Position numbers and translations under genes: made by a program. Below are positions 18,368 through 31,605 of a stretch of 64,000 bases of DNA, one piece after another. Each line of letters starts with the position of its first letter. Position 1 is the first letter of the stretch. The DNA comes from Pseudomonas sp. BCA17 (lineage in GTDB: Bacteria > Pseudomonadota > Gammaproteobacteria > Pseudomonadales > Pseudomonadaceae): NCBI RefSeq assembly GCF_004519405.1, contig NZ_SGWI01000002.1, positions 1 through 64,000 on the forward strand, written 5' to 3'. The notes under the pieces were generated by a model. The model did not search any database. It saw only the letters and a program-made list of their open reading frames with translations, and was not told where the DNA came from.

Positions 18368-20647
18368 ATGACGGGACATGCTATGGAATGGCTTGGGTTG
18401 CATTTCTTTACCGACCTTCCGGAAAAAGGGCATTTATTACTCAATTGCAGTCATAACCCCTTTCTGGTGCTGTTGGCTTACCTGGTCGCTTGCGCGGCCG
18501 GGTTCGGCACGCTGGATATGGCCGAGCGGGTCGGGCATGTGGAAGACCCCACCGCCCGGCGGCATTGGCGCTGGCTGGGTGCCGGGTGCCTGGCGGGCGG
18601 AATCTGGTCGACCCACTTCATCAGCATGCTGGCTTTCCAGGCCCCAATCACTATTCATTACGATCTGATTCTGACGTTCGCCTCGTTGGCGATCGCCTTG
18701 ATCGCTTCGCTATTCGCCATGCAAACCCTCAGTCACCCGCACCTGCGGTTCCATCAATACTTGCTGGCGTCGGCCTGGATGGGGCTCGGCATCGCCCTGA
18801 TGCATTATGTCGGTATGTCAGCCATGCGCTCCCAAGCCCTGGTGTACTTCGAATCGGGGTTGTTCATAGCGTCGGTGGCTATCGCCATTGGCGCCAGCCT
18901 GGCCGCGTTGTTGTTGTCCAACTACCTGCGCAACGGCGCCGGCATGTTTCATCAATTGCTCAAGTACGCCGCCAGCCTGACGCTGGGCGCCGGCATTATC
19001 AGCATGCACTTCACCGGCATGGCCGCCATGCAGATGGTGATTCCCACTGGCGCTGATCTGTCGTCTCCGCTGGACAACAACCCCATTCAACTTGGCCTGT
19101 CGGTGGCGGTGATCACGCTGCTGGTCATCGGCAGCAGCATCAGCGCCGCCTTGGCGGACAAAAAACTGCAGCACAAGGAGCGCGACCTGCGCCGGGTCAA
19201 CGCACTGCTCAGTGAACTCGACCAGGCGCGTGCGTCGCTGCAACAAGTCGCCCATTTCGACGCGCTGACCAGCCTGCTCAACCGCCGGGGGTTCAACCAG
19301 CTCTTCGCGGAGAAAGTCGCGGAAAAAACCGCAACCAAAGGCATGATGGCGGTGATCTTTCTGGATATCGACCACTTCAAGCGGATCAACGATAGCCTGG
19401 GGCACGATGCCGGCGACCAGCTGCTCAGCGTGTTGGCCGGGCATATCAAGGGCTCGGTGCGCAGTCATGAAGATGTGGTGGCGCGCTTTGGTGGCGATGA
19501 GTTCTGCATCCTGATCAACATCCACCACCGCGATGAAGCGCGCCACATGGCCCAGCGCATCATGCAAAAGATGAAAGACCCGATCGAACTGGCCGGGCGA
19601 CGCATGGTAATGACCACCAGCATCGGCATCAGCGTGTTCCCCGATGATGGCCTGACCTGCGAAGAGCTGTTGAAAACCGCCGACCTGGCGCTGTACCAAT
19701 CCAAGGATAGCGGGCGCAATAACCTGAGTTTCTTCAGTTCCAACCTGAAAACCCGCGCTTTCCTTGAGTTGCAATTGGAAGAGGAACTACGCACGGCCTT
19801 GCGTGCGCGCAACCAATTGGTGCTGTTCTACCAGCCGATCTTCGACATGAAGCTCGGCAAGGTCACTCGCCTGGAAGCCTTGGTGCGCTGGCAGCATCCG
19901 CAACACGGGCTGCTGGCGCCGGACCGTTTTATCGGCATCGCCGAAAGCAATGGGCTGATTGCCGAACTGGATCACTGGGTGCTGCGCCAGGCATGTCACG
20001 ACCTGAGTTTGTTGTCCGACCGTGGCTACACCGGGCTGACCATGGCCGTGAACTGCTCAGCCTTGAATCTGGCCCGTGATGAATTGGCGGATGAGATCGA
20101 AGACGCCCTGCGCTTTGCCGGGATTGCCGCCAACCGCCTGGAGCTGGAGGTTACTGAAAATGCGTTGATGGGCAATATCAGCAGCACCCTGGCGCTGTTG
20201 CGGCAGATTCGAGCACTGGGTGTCTCCCTGTCCATCGATGACTTCGGCACGGGCTACTCATCCCTGGCCTACCTCAAGCGCCTGCCGTTGAACACCTTGA
20301 AGATCGACCGTTCGTTCATCCAGGACATTCCCAAATCCACCGCCGATATCGAGATCGTCCAGGTGATTATCGGCATGGCCCACACCTTGCACCTGCAGGT
20401 GGTTACCGAAGGCGTGGAAACCCAGGCGCAATTCGAACTGCTGCTCAAGCATGGCTGTGATTTCGTGCAAGGCTACCTGCTCAGCCCGGCGGTGCCTGCC
20501 AGTGACATCATCGGTGTGATGCAGGGCATCCAGATGCGCAACCCGCTCCACTCGCTTAGCGCGGAAGGTAACAAGGAGGCCCCCCCATCGAAAGAGCCCG
20601 CCCCGGGACGTACCGGCTCGACCTCTATCGTGAGGCCAATTCGCTGA
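18368..20647 (+). CDS. mucR: MHYT-GGDEF-EAL c-di-GMP enzyme, MucR-like
   Basis: Inner-membrane protein of 759 residues. An MHYT sensor domain of about seven helices spans residues 30-265, with the three motif copies THFISML (~82), MHYVGM (145) and MHFTGM (213), proposed to bind a metal such as copper. A GGDEF domain follows, with an intact RFGGDEF at 373-379, then an EAL domain with RLEALVRW at 501-508. The usual RxxD inhibitory site before GGDEF reads SHED, so product inhibition is probably lost. Domain order and size match MucR, which supplies c-di-GMP for alginate synthesis in P. aeruginosa. The start could also be the ATG at 18383. Confidence 0.88.
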   Translation: MTGHAMEWLGLHFFTDLPEKGHLLLNCSHNPFLVLLAYLVACAAGFGTLDMAERVGHVEDPTARRHWRWLGAGCLAGGIWSTHFISMLAFQAPITIHYDLILTFASLAIALIASLFAMQTLSHPHLRFHQYLLASAWMGLGIALMHYVGMSAMRSQALVYFESGLFIASVAIAIGASLAALLLSNYLRNGAGMFHQLLKYAASLTLGAGIISMHFTGMAAMQMVIPTGADLSSPLDNNPIQLGLSVAVITLLVIGSSISAALADKKLQHKERDLRRVNALLSELDQARASLQQVAHFDALTSLLNRRGFNQLFAEKVAEKTATKGMMAVIFLDIDHFKRINDSLGHDAGDQLLSVLAGHIKGSVRSHEDVVARFGGDEFCILINIHHRDEARHMAQRIMQKMKDPIELAGRRMVMTTSIGISVFPDDGLTCEELLKTADLALYQSKDSGRNNLSFFSSNLKTRAFLELQLEEELRTALRARNQLVLFYQPIFDMKLGKVTRLEALVRWQHPQHGLLAPDRFIGIAESNGLIAELDHWVLRQACHDLSLLSDRGYTGLTMAVNCSALNLARDELADEIEDALRFAGIAANRLELEVTENALMGNISSTLALLRQIRALGVSLSIDDFGTGYSSLAYLKRLPLNTLKIDRSFIQDIPKSTADIEIVQVIIGMAHTLHLQVVTEGVETQAQFELLLKHGCDFVQGYLLSPAVPASDIIGVMQGIQMRNPLHSLSAEGNKEAPPSKEPAPGRTGSTSIVRPIR

Positions 20648-20850
20648 CGCCGACTATTTGGCATTTCGCCATCATTTGGTTAAAGAACGCCGACGAACGG
20701 CCGATTCATCAGAGTCCGGCCGGAATTCCCCTGTAAACACTTGGGCTCAACCTAGCCGCCCCGGACTCAGACGCACTGTAAAGTCGCGAACTCTCATTCC
20801 GTGATGGCTCCTCGATTTTTGCGGCCATCCGTCCAGGTACATGGCGCCCA

Positions 20851-23046
20851 ATGACTTCCAAAAACAGCTCCGCCACCGTAATCCCCGACGTGTTGCCTAC
20901 AGAGCCTGCGGAAAAGCCCGCCGGTTCCAAACCTGTGAACAGCGCCCGCCCGCTGGCCACCCAACAGTACTTGTACTTCACCGAGACCAATACCGATCGC
21001 ATCCTCGACAACCTCGACGGCCTGCGCGACATGGTGTTCCCACGCCCGCCCCAGCAGGAAGGTGACGGTGCCCCGGGCCATGAGCAGGAATTCCCGTCGG
21101 CGTGCCTGATCGGCCTGGGCCGCTGCGGCTCGAACATTGCCTTGGACGTGGCGGAGTTGGTGTACAACGCGCGCAAGTTTTACTTGAACGAATTCAGTGC
21201 CGAGGATAAGCCTCAATTCAAAAAGAGCCCTGTAGACAAGGGTTACAGCCCAACCCAATGGATTCGCAACAACCTGCGCCTGGGCGGCGGCAAGACCACC
21301 AAGCCGGTCTTCCTGGTGGAACCCTTGGTGATGCTGGGCGACCTGGACAAAGACATTGCCGGGCGCATCCGTTTCTCGCGCAAAGGTGAGAAAAGCGGCT
21401 TTTTGCGCGACTACAGCAAGATGAAAATCATGGACCTGTCGGAAGTCCATGCCGGTGGCGCCGGTAACGCGCCGATCCTGGGCCAGTACCTGGCCAAGAT
21501 CATCCTCAACAAAGACACCCAGCGTTTCTCCAGCCCCGACTGGAAGATGATTCACTCGTACCTGATCGACTCCTGCGGCATCAAGGCCAACCAGTCGCGC
21601 CTGTACTTCTCGATCTTCAGTGCCGGCGGTGGCACCGGCTCGGGCATGGCTTCAGAGTTCGGCCTGGCCCAGCAACACTCGTACATGAACAAGACGTTCG
21701 ACACCAAGCCCGCCGACGAACACGACAGCAAGAGCGGCCATGCGTTTGTGTTCGAGCCGATCTTCACCAGTGGCATCTGTGTGCTGCCGAATATCTCCGA
21801 CCACCGCAGCGAAATGTCCGAAGCCCTGCACATCAACGCCGGCCGGCTGCTGTGCAAGTATCTGTCAGAAGAGTGGGATTTCTCGTACAACTTCGCCAAT
21901 GAAGACAGCAGCGAAGCCAGTGTGAAAGGTCGCATCCGCCCATGGAACGCAATGATGCTGATCTCCAACGACATCATGCGTTACGCCGAAGAGAGCGATG
22001 ACGGCAATATCCAGAACATTGATGTCAATGCCATGGAAAAACATGCCAACCAGTACATTTCCCAACAGATCTTCAACATTCTCACCGCCCAGGCGGTGAC
22101 CACCGACTACGACCAGAACTACTTCCGGCGCGCCGGGATCGACATCGGCGAGACCATTCGCCTGGATGCCAACGACCTGTTCATGAGCCTGGCCGGCCCG
22201 GTGGCGATTGCCTACGCCGAATCCGTGGTGCCGGAAACCCCGGTACCATCGAACGACAAGTTCAAGGTGTTCGACAAAGAGCCGCAGCGCCTGAACATCG
22301 ATGACCTGTTTTTCCGCTCCATCGACCTGCCGCACTTCAACAAGGTCACCCAGGCCATCGAAGGCATCAGCCTGCTGCCGATTGAGTCCAAGCGTTATCG
22401 GGCGTCGCTTGAGCAATACAAGAATTCCGGCTATGACGCGGCGGCGCTACATGACCTGCACTTCTTCAAGAACTGCTCGTCGGTAGTCTCCATCGTATCG
22501 CTGCCCAAGGATTACAAGCTGTCCTACATGGACCTGAACCGGCTCAAGACCCATCTCAACAGCCTGTTTCCCAACACCACGCTCAAGCGCTATGCGTTGG
22601 TGATCGGCGCATCGGCCAACCTGTCGCTGACCACACTGATCGCCAAGAGCCCGTGCCTTTCGGATGACTTCCTGACGCTGATCGTCGCCTTTATCAAGCG
22701 CTGCTTTGCGCGTAATCCTTACCGCTTCGATGACACGCTGGACAATTCGATCCTGGACTTCATCATCCACGAGGACTTCGACGAAGACCGCATCGATGAG
22801 TTGCTCAATGAGTTCGAGAACCCAGCGAAAATCCTCGATACCAACTGGTATGCGATCAAGCCGATGTATGAGAAGAAATACCGCGAGTTGATCAACGACA
22901 AGGAAAAGTTCGTGTCGATCAACGACATTCGCCTGTCACGGGATTGCGTGAAAAAGGCAATCAAATATCTGCGTGAGATTTATCGTCACCGGATTGGCAA
23001 GACCAAGGTTATTTCGTTGAATAATCATACCGGCAAGACGGCTTAG
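20851..23046 (+). CDS. Divergent tubulin/FtsZ-like GTPase, standalone
   Basis: A 731-residue cytoplasmic protein that carries the tubulin/FtsZ fingerprints in order: T1 loop GLGRCGSN (88-95), T3-like GGAGNAP (202-208), the tubulin signature GGGTGSG in FSAGGGTGSGMASEFG (T4, 259-265), T6-like WNAMMLISNDIM (SND at 372-374), and a T7-like LDANDLF (438-444), which keeps the two aspartates used in FtsZ (NxDxxD) to drive GTP hydrolysis in the next subunit. A further 290 residues with no known domain follow, rich in Asp, Lys and aromatic residues. There is no signal peptide, membrane segment or FtsA/ZipA-binding tail. It is much longer than FtsZ (~390). It probably belongs with the Tubulin_2/FtsZ-like proteins. 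Role unknown. It lies 203 bp behind mucR on the same strand. Confidence 0.8.
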   Translation: MTSKNSSATVIPDVLPTEPAEKPAGSKPVNSARPLATQQYLYFTETNTDRILDNLDGLRDMVFPRPPQQEGDGAPGHEQEFPSACLIGLGRCGSNIALDVAELVYNARKFYLNEFSAEDKPQFKKSPVDKGYSPTQWIRNNLRLGGGKTTKPVFLVEPLVMLGDLDKDIAGRIRFSRKGEKSGFLRDYSKMKIMDLSEVHAGGAGNAPILGQYLAKIILNKDTQRFSSPDWKMIHSYLIDSCGIKANQSRLYFSIFSAGGGTGSGMASEFGLAQQHSYMNKTFDTKPADEHDSKSGHAFVFEPIFTSGICVLPNISDHRSEMSEALHINAGRLLCKYLSEEWDFSYNFANEDSSEASVKGRIRPWNAMMLISNDIMRYAEESDDGNIQNIDVNAMEKHANQYISQQIFNILTAQAVTTDYDQNYFRRAGIDIGETIRLDANDLFMSLAGPVAIAYAESVVPETPVPSNDKFKVFDKEPQRLNIDDLFFRSIDLPHFNKVTQAIEGISLLPIESKRYRASLEQYKNSGYDAAALHDLHFFKNCSSVVSIVSLPKDYKLSYMDLNRLKTHLNSLFPNTTLKRYALVIGASANLSLTTLIAKSPCLSDDFLTLIVAFIKRCFARNPYRFDDTLDNSILDFIIHEDFDEDRIDELLNEFENPAKILDTNWYAIKPMYEKKYRELINDKEKFVSINDIRLSRDCVKKAIKYLREIYRHRIGKTKVISLNNHTGKTA

Positions 23047-29142: not shown

Positions 29143-29448
29143 ATGACCACCAAGACCCGTTCGCTGTCCGCCGCTACCCTCATTCTGGCCCTGGGCTCAG
29201 CCCTGAGCCTGTCCACCCTGGCCACCACCGCCCATGCTGCCGATGACATGCAGAAATGCTTCGGCGTCGCCGAAGCCGGCAAGAACGATTGCGCCGCGGG
29301 CGCCGGCACGACCTGCGCGGGTACCTCCAAAGTCAAGGATCAGGCCAATGCCTGGAAACTGGTCCCCGCCGGCACCTGCGCTAAAACCCCAAGCTCCACC
29401 TCGCCGACTGGTTTCGGCCAGGAAGCTGCATTCACCGCCAAGTCTTGA
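29143..29448 (+). CDS. bufA: DUF2282 bufferin-type RiPP precursor
   Basis: A 101-residue secreted peptide precursor. A clear signal peptide (residues 1-32, ending TTAHAAD) precedes a core with four Cys at 39, 50, 58 and 79 in the contexts [22 protein letters not shown] and AGTCAK. This is the DUF2282 pattern of BufA1-type bufferins, in which an MNIO enzyme converts core cysteines to 5-thiooxazoles that bind copper. The next three genes are the matching enzyme, partner and DoxX protein. Copper chelation here is inference from the family. Upstream, TTGTAAC near 29060 could be part of an ECF-type promoter (weak). Confidence 0.85.
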
Positions 29449-29474
29449 AACCCGCCACAACCTGAGTACGGACG

Positions 29475-30350
29475 ATGACGCTTTCACACCAACACAGGGT
29501 CTCTCCCGCTCAGGTGCCCGGCCTTCCCCCCAAGGCCGGGCTGGGGCTGAAGAATGAGCATTTCATCGAAGTGCTCGAGACCTCGCCCGACATCGGTTTT
29601 TTTGAAGTACACGCCGAAAACTATATGGTGGCCGGCGGCCCGTTTCATCACTACCTGGGCTTGATCCGCGAGCAGTACCCACTGTCATTGCATGGCGTGG
29701 GGCTGTCCATCGGTGGCGAAGGCCCGCTGAACCGTGAGCACCTGGCACGGTTGGCCACGCTGATCGAGCGCTATCAACCCCACTCTTTTTCCGAGCACCT
29801 GGCCTGGTCCAGCCATGGCCCGGTGTTTCTGAATGACTTGTTGCCCCTGGCCTACGACACCGCGACCCTGAACCGGGTGTGCGAACACGTCGATCAGGTA
29901 CAGAACGCTCTGAAGCGCCCCATGCTGCTGGAGACCCCGTCGACGTACGTGCAGTTCCAGCGTTCGACCCTGGACGAGGCGGACTTCATCAGTGAAATCA
30001 TCCGTCGTACGGGCTGCGGCCTGTTACTGGACGTCAACAACGTCTACGTATCGTGCATCAATCACCAACGTGACCCGCTTGCCTACATCAACGCACTGCC
30101 GTTGCATGCGGTGGGTGAGATCCATCTGGCTGGTTTCGCCGAAGACACTGACAGCCTGGGTGATCGCCTGCTGATAGATGATCACGGCGCGCCCATCGAT
30201 AACGCGGTGTGGCAATTGTATGAGCAGGTACTGACACGCACCGGCCCGATCGCCACGTTGATCGAGCGGGATAACCAGGTACCGGCCTTCCCTGTGCTGC
30301 TGGGCGAAGCGCAACAGGCCGAGTGGCATCTGTCGCAGGTCACCCCATGA
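29475..30350 (+). CDS. bufB: DUF692 multinuclear iron oxidase (MNIO), bufferin maturase
   Basis: A 291-residue TIM-barrel enzyme of the DUF692/MNIO family, which uses two or three iron ions to modify cysteines of RiPP precursors. Candidate metal ligands are in FFEVHAENY (Glu, His, Glu, Asn), [36 protein letters not shown] and EIHLAGF. It opens with [16 protein letters not shown], typical of the family. It starts 26 bases after bufA, and its stop overlaps bufC by ATGA. Confidence 0.88.
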
Positions 30351-31123
30351 GCCATCACGATGCGTTTACCCGTGCCCTGCTCTCACCGGACCTTGCCTGC
30401 CCGGATGGCCTGTTCAGCAGCAACGGCGCCGACCCGGCCAGCCGTTTTATGGTCTATCGCAACAACGTCCACAGCGCGTTGATCAACGCCCTGGTAACGG
30501 CTTACCCCGTGACGTTGCAATTGGTCGCAGAGGAATTCTTCCGTGCCATGGCCGGCCTCTTCGTGCAGGCGTGCCCTCCCACCAGTCCGCTGATCAGCGA
30601 ATACGGCGGTGCGTTTGCCGCGTTCATCCAAGACTTCGGGCCGGCCGCCAGCGTGCCTTATCTGGCCGATGTCGCACGGCTGGAACGGCTACGGGTGCGC
30701 GCCTATCACGCCGCCGATGCCACGCCAATGGATCGACAAGCCATTTTGCTCGCACTGCAAGCTGAAACCGAATTGGGGAGCCTGCGTCTGCAACTGCATC
30801 CGTCCCTTGCCACTTTGGACTCTGCCTACGCCATTGTCGGCATCTGGGCAGCGCATCAGTCCGAAGAAGCTACTACCGACTTCAACCCCTGGCATGCCCA
30901 AAGTGCCTTGGTGTTACGCCAAGGGTTGTCAGTCAACGTGTTCGCCGTCGACCCAGCCACGGTCGCGTTCATCAACCATCTGAACCAAGGCGCGGAGCTT
31001 GAAACGGCAGTGGAATACGCCCTCGACGTGTCGGCCGAATTCGACCTGCACCAAAGTCTGAACCTGCTGATCAACCACGACGTCATCACTCATCTGCACA
31101 CAAAAGAAAAGGGTTCGCCATGA
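30347..31123 (+). CDS. bufC: DUF2063 partner protein of the MNIO enzyme
   Basis: A 258-residue protein with the N-terminal DUF2063 domain (often named putative DNA-binding domain) recognised by [21 protein letters not shown] and [14 protein letters not shown]. In MNIO systems this partner holds or delivers the precursor peptide to the enzyme, rather than binding DNA. The ATG at 30347 overlaps the bufB stop, and its own stop overlaps the doxX start, so all are coupled. Confidence 0.85.
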
Positions 31124-31605
31124 ACATATCCCCCTCGTGCCTGGTTAAACAGGTCATTGCGCTGTTCGAAAAAATCCCCTACAGCCTGATCGCTTTTCTC
31201 GCACGCTTCTCCATCGCTGCGGTGTTCTGGAAATCCGGGCAGACCAAAGTCGAAGGCTTTGCCATCGACCTGATCAGCGGCACCTTCCAGCTGGGCGAAC
31301 CGCGCCTGGCCGCATCCACCCTGCCGCTGTTCCGCAGCGAATACCACGTCCCCTTGCTGTCGCCGGAGGTGGCGGCGCATATGTCTGCGTTTGCCGAACA
31401 CTTCTTCCCGGTACTGATCCTGGTGGGTTTTGCCACGCGCTTCTCGGCGTTAGCGCTGATTGGCATGACACTGGTCATTCAGCTCTTCGTCTACCCGGAA
31501 GCCTATCCGACTCACGGCACCTGGATCGCGATACTGCTGTTGTTGGTCGCCAAAGGGCCAGGTCGCCTGTCCATCGACCACCTGATCGCCCGTCGCTACC
31601 GCTGA
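31120..31605 (+). CDS. DoxX-family membrane protein of the bufferin operon
   Basis: A 161-residue membrane protein with four predicted helices and the DoxX family stretch FLARFSIAAVFWKSGQTKVEG near the N-terminus and ALIGMTLVIQLFVYPEAY later. DoxX proteins often close bufferin operons (gigD in Caulobacter), but their job is not settled. It begins within the bufC stop and its last ten bases overlap the convergent LysR gene. Confidence 0.85.
   Translation: MNISPSCLVKQVIALFEKIPYSLIAFLARFSIAAVFWKSGQTKVEGFAIDLISGTFQLGEPRLAASTLPLFRSEYHVPLLSPEVAAHMSAFAEHFFPVLILVGFATRFSALALIGMTLVIQLFVYPEAYPTHGTWIAILLLLVAKGPGRLSIDHLIARRYR

Follow-up and report, generated by a model that had tools for sequence, protein, structure and literature searches.

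A predicted FliA-type promoter and c-di-GMP gene neighbours suggest a possible motility role for the tubulin-like protein FtsZl2 of fluorescent pseudomonads

The PhuZ and TubZ types are the well-known extra tubulins of bacteria. Another family of the tubulin/FtsZ superfamily, FtsZl2 (FtsZ-like 2), was named by Makarova and Koonin in 2010 after PFL_1302 of P. fluorescens Pf-5 and is placed, in the consulted part of that paper, with those families of the superfamily that have diverged most (PMC2875224). There it is described by its T1, T4, T6, T7 and H7 elements and by a C-terminal region of about 300 amino acids that belongs to no known family; the same part of the paper gives it no associated genes and no function, and considers a direct role in division unlikely. 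The sister family FtsZl1, for which an envelope-type role was inferred, is characterized in those pages by a coiled coil, no recognizable T6-H7 and operons with VWA proteins, kinases or OmpA-like proteins. A superfamily study from 2023 covers FtsZ-like proteins of the Tubulin_2 type, and the name FtsZl is absent from the portion consulted. In the open-licence literature we found no later work on FtsZl2 or PFL_1302 beyond PMC2875224 (FtsZL272E is a false match) and no study of the protein under FtsZ-like or tubulin-like combined with Pseudomonas, FliA or flagella; the literature searched contained no expression or phenotype report for it. No tubulin or FtsZ is named in the consulted parts of a P. 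fluorescens Pf0-1 swarming screen or of studies of fliA and FleQ (PMC11237744, PMC6843279, PMC6120874).

The window analyzed here, a 64-kb stretch of Pseudomonas DNA, encodes a protein that almost certainly belongs to FtsZl2. The assignment derives from the genus, the motif set and the lack of any other such match in the genome, with PFL_1302 compared by description. T1, T4, T6 and T7 occur in one protein together with a GGGTG(S/T)G signature, T6 and T7 being recognized by motif only. The protein shares with the published family its genus, the GGGTG(S/T)G-type core and, apparently, a C-terminal region of some 300 residues in which no Pfam family passes its cut-off; in both cases there is no conserved operon and an ordinary FtsZ coexists (PMC2875224, parts consulted). 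The original prediction had suggested that the gene would be a new system, with a role apparently undescribed. We found no described role, but the family is not new because it was published in 2010 with a P. fluorescens type protein. What appear to be new leads on FtsZl2 are a promoter of the FliA type and a bias towards c-di-GMP genes as neighbours, which we add to an account that, as far as consulted, lists no associated genes.

The gene and the elements of its product are listed below, with conservation referring to a 31-member alignment of the window protein and 30 relatives at 55-95% identity.

20851-23046, + strand: FtsZl2 gene, 731 amino acids, tubulin/FtsZ superfamily (open reading frame and translation, ATG start)
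21112-21135, + strand: T1 loop GLGRCGSN, residues 88-95, invariant with L89 nearly so
21454-21474, + strand: T3 loop GGAGNAP, residues 202-208, invariant with A204 nearly so
21625-21645, + strand: T4 signature GGGTGSG, residues 259-265, invariant
21964-21972, + strand: T6-like SND, residues 372-374, invariant, without support from profile comparison
22162-22179, + strand: T7-like LDANDL, residues 438-443, invariant; equivalence with FtsZ by motif and the consulted part of PMC2875224, not by profile
22939-23016, + strand: basic amphipathic C-terminal helix, residues 697-722, a candidate for membrane or partner binding (helix in both low-confidence models)

The open reading frame and the five motifs, in tubulin/FtsZ order, are exactly as first predicted. 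Judged from sequence, the conservation of these motifs across the 31 members is not due to chance, and Asp439 and Asp442 of LDANDL are spaced like the DxxD of the genome's own FtsZ. The gene has a median dN/dS of 0.065 against 80 named relatives, which puts it mid-range among eight genes of the window that were compared (0.034 to 0.20); by this measure it is under purifying selection, not exceptionally so. The protein carries no strongly hydrophobic segment (maximum 19-residue hydropathy of 1.4), and its top amphipathic/charge score falls on an 18-residue window at residues 700-717 with a charge of +6.

By its nucleotide loops and the profile similarity of its GTPase domain the protein is a member of the tubulin/FtsZ superfamily. 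Its leading Pfam matches are Tubulin_2 (PF13809; 18.6 bits against a cut-off of 27, residues 240-386) and Tubulin (PF00091; 17.1 bits against 33), both under the gathering cut-offs; the protein therefore passes neither PF00091, the mark of canonical FtsZ membership, nor PF13809, for which the genome holds no match at E <= 0.001. At E <= 0.1 Tubulin matches 28 of the 31 alignment members and Tubulin_2 27, and any other family at most 8. Likeness to FtsZl1/Tubulin_2 is confined to the weak match over residues 240-386, and no Tubulin_2 members for comparison were found in 120 genomes of the phylum. The one NCBIfam match was weak and fell far under its cut-off, and the solved structures in the PDB gave none by sequence or profile. 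In hhalign alignments T3 and T4 fell, in order, opposite their FtsZ counterparts, GGAGNAP on GAGANP and GGGTGSG on GGGTGTG, at low probability (2% against one FtsZ; 5%, E 0.0076, against 31).

Additionally, we compared the FtsZl2-versus-FtsZ profile score with column shuffles, using 100 shuffles per segment. None scored as high for the GTPase segment (residues 78-386) and one did for the T3-T4 segment, whereas 99 did for the T6-T7 segment (360-460) and 52 for the C-terminal segment (478-605), whose equivalence with FtsZ fails this test. Therefore, the profile evidence backs the GTPase core only, and the assignment of T6, T7 and the C-terminal domain rests on motifs and on the consulted part of PMC2875224. 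FtsZl2 differs from FtsZ in its much greater length, as had been remarked (731 amino acids against 398 in the genome's own FtsZ), in its long extra C-terminal region, and in being missing from many genomes of the genus.

The last 290 or so residues had been said to match nothing that could be named, and indeed no Pfam cut-off is passed anywhere in the protein; the consulted part of PMC2875224 likewise describes a region of about 300 amino acids without known relatives. Structure predictions for the full length (22 sequences, mean pLDDT 39.9) and for residues 420-731 (31 sequences, mean pLDDT 58.9) were too poor to use. With the latter model Foldseek returned 49 matches at E <= 10, of which none reached E <= 0.001. 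The 49 include a few microtubule chains, all with E values of at least 6, and we treated these as meaningless. The order of secondary structure in the low-confidence models is loosely similar to that of the FtsZ C-terminal domain, but with 52 of 100 shuffles scoring as high we do not claim this likeness.

We examined the genomic neighborhood of the gene in the window and in other loci. Immediately upstream lies a gene that may be a functional partner:

18368-20647, + strand (the same strand as FtsZl2): MHYT-GGDEF-EAL c-di-GMP gene (Pfam MHYT, GGDEF, EAL)

Downstream are, by eye, liv amino-acid transporter genes. Between 11.5 and 34 kb of the window no cell-division, phage or plasmid gene was seen by eye, and ftsZ is about 455 kb away, in line with what had been stated for this gene. 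Comparison across Pseudomonas found the same syntenic block in many loci, and 75 of 80 named loci have a GGDEF/EAL gene within 2.5 kb of FtsZl2. These 80, the nearest of 575 relatives found, are syntenic and not independent. The gene had been called standalone: this is right for a stand-alone chromosomal protein, but it misses the conserved FliA-type promoter and the c-di-GMP neighbourhood.

In a set of 47 regions, which includes four with broken copies, FtsZl2 has no neighbouring gene family that recurs from family to family, the GGDEF/EAL class excepted; within one family the same neighbours can recur (e.g. in family f194). GGDEF/EAL proteins account for 4 of 44 gene families at the adjacent positions (+-1) against 2 of 161 at positions +-2 to +-6 (one-sided Fisher p = 0.02, in a post hoc test chosen once the pattern had been seen), and all 11 GGDEF/EAL neighbours are on the strand of FtsZl2, against 40 of 80 others. 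They are of several kinds: MHYT-GGDEF-EAL in the window, ammonium-transporter (Amt)-GGDEF-EAL in family f174, NMT1-GGDEF and TPR-GGDEF. The adjacency survives rearrangement, as two kinds have switched side and stayed adjacent: Amt-GGDEF-EAL is downstream in loci L151, L152, L155 and L157 and upstream in L248, and NMT1-GGDEF is upstream in L167 and downstream in L240. Most FtsZl2 contexts are without a GGDEF/EAL neighbour, including two of the seven f174 loci (L154, L156).

Several features of these loci are recorded for their own sake. In L168 (genome G359) the MHYT-GGDEF-EAL frame runs into the N-terminus of FtsZl2 in one open reading frame of 1189 amino acids, and FtsZl2 is split near residues 356-360, which may be decay or a sequencing error. 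Long antisense open reading frames (747 and 867 amino acids) lie opposite FtsZl2 in some Pseudomonas, namely in L166 and L039, probably as an effect of codon composition. The window also holds a bufferin-type copper RiPP cluster at 29143-31605 (+ strand), with a BufB MNIO maturase above cut-off, a precursor-like protein of 101 amino acids with a weak BufA2 match under cut-off, and HvfC-like and HvfX-like proteins, also under cut-off.

The same neighbourhood could be read in another way, with FtsZl2 acting in c-di-GMP signalling as a GTPase switch or scaffold that does not polymerise: its core would bind GTP without forming filaments. Such a role would suit the same-strand GGDEF/EAL neighbours kept through rearrangements, and also a T7 and C-terminal region whose equivalence with FtsZ lacks profile support. 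However, the T7-like DxxD is invariant in all 31 members, as expected if the loop completes the active site of a neighbouring subunit, and the neighbour statistic is post hoc. We consider this switch unlikely.

The reading we favour, that FtsZl2 belongs to the late flagellar programme, draws on the DNA in front of the gene:

20681-20707, + strand: sigma-28/FliA-type promoter TAAAGAAC-N11-GCCGATTC, box beginning 170 bp before the ATG
20659-20671, no strand assigned: inverted repeat TGGCATTTCGCCA, a possible regulator site, 22 nt upstream of the -35 box

The FliA consensus TAAAGTTT-N11-GCCGATAA has served to locate FliA promoters in P. fluorescens MFE01 (PMC7286023, part consulted), and a predicted promoter fitting it lies 5' of the FtsZl2 gene; sigma-28 consensus sequences may differ between Pseudomonas species (PMC5300878, likewise in part). 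The conserved block was first seen by aligning the upstream regions of 12 loci. Exact TAAAG-N14-GCCGAT has one site in the window, 5' of FtsZl2, and six matches with up to one mismatch against 0.69 expected. The pattern T[AC]AAG-N14-GCCGAT is present within 300 bp upstream of FtsZl2 in all 80 named loci and at no other site in their 2.75 Mb of strand-bases; a looser TAAA-N15-GCCGAT is found upstream in 79 of the 80 and in one other place. In these loci the distance from the start of the box to the ATG is 169-183 bp, and both boxes reach 2.0 bits (one column 1.9) with a spacer that is mostly lower. In a control scan of 632,954 bases from the genome of the window, the window itself among them, the strict pattern occurs five times: at FtsZl2, 38 bp before an open reading frame with MCPsignal and HAMP domains, and in three other places. 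A sigma-70 scan gave one site against 1.1 expected, and Rfam gave no match around the gene.

FtsZl2 would share its promoter class with the class IV genes flaA, fliS, flgM and motA of P. fluorescens MFE01 (PMC7286023, part consulted); unlike those flagellar genes, it has non-flagellar neighbours in the window, as judged by eye. The inverted repeat TGGC-N5-GCCA stands 22-23 nt before the -35 box in 28 of the 80 named loci and is absent from 52. AmrZ was weighed as its owner and, with the repeat missing from those 52 loci, not adopted.

Beyond the 80 loci the box persists for some distance. It is present in all 30 of the best further loci of the genus (L081-L110; 28 with TAAA, L083 and L103 with TCAAG) and is in place in L111 despite a diverged spacer. 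In L112 and L113 the box has one mismatch (shuffle P of 0.07 and 0.00, respectively). The exact box is absent from all 13 more distant genus loci (L114-L126), where the best relaxed matches have P >= 0.05. Outside the genus, three of the five f194 genomes with an intact gene (L197, L198, L200) carry TAAA-N15-GC[CT]GATAT at -184, and L132 (genome G433) has a weaker FliA-type form (shuffle P 0.02); a one-mismatch, off-spacing form at -393 in L248 (P 0.03) was discounted. No convincing box was found in the members scanned of families f174, f172, f297, f183, f190 and f259, and the remaining loci scanned gave P >= 0.09. Among the loci scanned, the FliA link is therefore clade-specific, since the exact box is missing from L114-L126 and from most other families. 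Within the fluorescent-pseudomonad clade, the conservation of the box makes it likely that transcription of FtsZl2 depends on FliA.

It is conceivable that the FliA-type box is real and FtsZl2 has a housekeeping or surface-adaptation role that is merely co-regulated with flagella, and a role other than motility outside the fluorescent pseudomonads. The absence of the box from the 13 distant loci and most other families scanned would be expected then, as would neighbours that vary from family to family. Nevertheless, a FliA-type site recurs in f194 and c-di-GMP neighbours recur in several families, which makes simple co-regulation rather improbable to us.

Of 398 genomes of the genus, counting that of the window, 261 carry an FtsZl2 match, nearly always a single one, and 137 have none. 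Some copies are partial: the match covers only the C-terminal part in G068 and G387 and only the middle in G255, and G359 has a split reading frame. Wider draws, which overlap, gave matches in 3 of 274 genomes of the class (that of the window, G433 and one with a marginal match of 85 residues), 3 of 350 in a second class draw at E <= 0.1 (one marginal), 9 of 398 in the phylum (six from the own genus), 13 of 244 in the order (three from the own genus), 14 of 119 in the order of G1033, which itself has a broken copy, and 1 of 3 in the order of G433. FtsZl2 is found in scattered gammaproteobacterial families. The protein looks dispensable, since part of the genus lacks it or has only a broken copy. 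The broken copy of G1033 (L161) shows frame changes, and its residues 346 and 358 are separated by roughly 1 kb of additional DNA; four relatives with the same genus label have full-length matches.

This distribution bears on whether FtsZl2 might be an accessory filament of cell division or membrane remodelling, another polymer of the FtsZ type that would work on the envelope independently of motility, much as was inferred for FtsZl1. The tubulin/FtsZ core motifs, purifying selection (median dN/dS 0.065) and the basic C-terminal helix are all compatible with such a filament. Since FtsZl2 is missing or partial in many genomes of the genus, though, it is not needed for division. The only PF00091 match of the genome is FtsZ, on the same contig at 477,744. 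The late-flagellar-type promoter also argues against an envelope filament, as does the view in the consulted part of PMC2875224, which reports no gene association and thinks a direct division role unlikely. We regard it as improbable.

A phage- or plasmid-derived tubulin of the PhuZ or TubZ type, types well known in bacteria, or an anti-phage defence protein is very improbable and was rejected, as PADLOC and PHROGs gave no match to the protein, no relative was found at E <= 0.001 in 50,697 phage records (best E 0.4) or 72,556 plasmid records (best E 8), none was confirmed in viral contigs (pattern-filtered tblastn), and the same syntenic block recurs in many Pseudomonas loci. The chromosomal character first assigned to the gene is borne out by these searches and by its copies across the genus.

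We return to FtsZl2 as a GTP-binding, probably self-assembling protein of the late flagellar or motility programme, which is the best explanation overall, although we hold it tentatively. Our observations concern sequence, conservation, the promoter box and the neighbourhood, and from these we infer the biochemical and cellular steps. FtsZl2 would be a soluble cytoplasmic protein with a tubulin/FtsZ-type core, which very probably binds GTP. It would self-assemble through a T7-type contact, and a GTP-dependent polymer seems to us somewhat favoured. In fluorescent pseudomonads FliA (sigma-28) would transcribe the gene in the last flagellar tier, when the hook-basal body is already finished, and the protein would accordingly act in motile cells rather than in division. 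The conserved FliA-type promoter and the c-di-GMP neighbourhood point to motility, so that a role in motility or in its c-di-GMP control is quite possible, if a little short of an even chance. A scaffold or filament of FtsZl2 might then position or tune a late motility component, such as the flagellar pole, a chemosensory array or a c-di-GMP-controlled step, with the basic C-terminal helix as its likely docking element. A specific positioning role is doubtful, and its target is a guess.

The most far-reaching form of this proposal, which we offer as speculation that is unlikely to hold in full, makes FtsZl2 a dedicated cytomotive tubulin: a GTP-driven filament switched on by FliA after the hook-basal body, tuned by the neighbouring c-di-GMP enzymes, and placing or controlling polar flagella or chemosensory arrays. 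To our knowledge, it would then be the first tubulin relative to be placed in the flagellar regulon. The sigma-28-type promoter makes the function of FtsZl2 testable in ordinary laboratory strains (P. fluorescens, P. protegens), and it opens the question of whether a tubulin relative is part of bacterial motility. If this were true, FtsZl2 would be added to the small number of cytoskeletal systems linked to the organisation of flagella or chemosensory structures, as a GTPase of the tubulin class.
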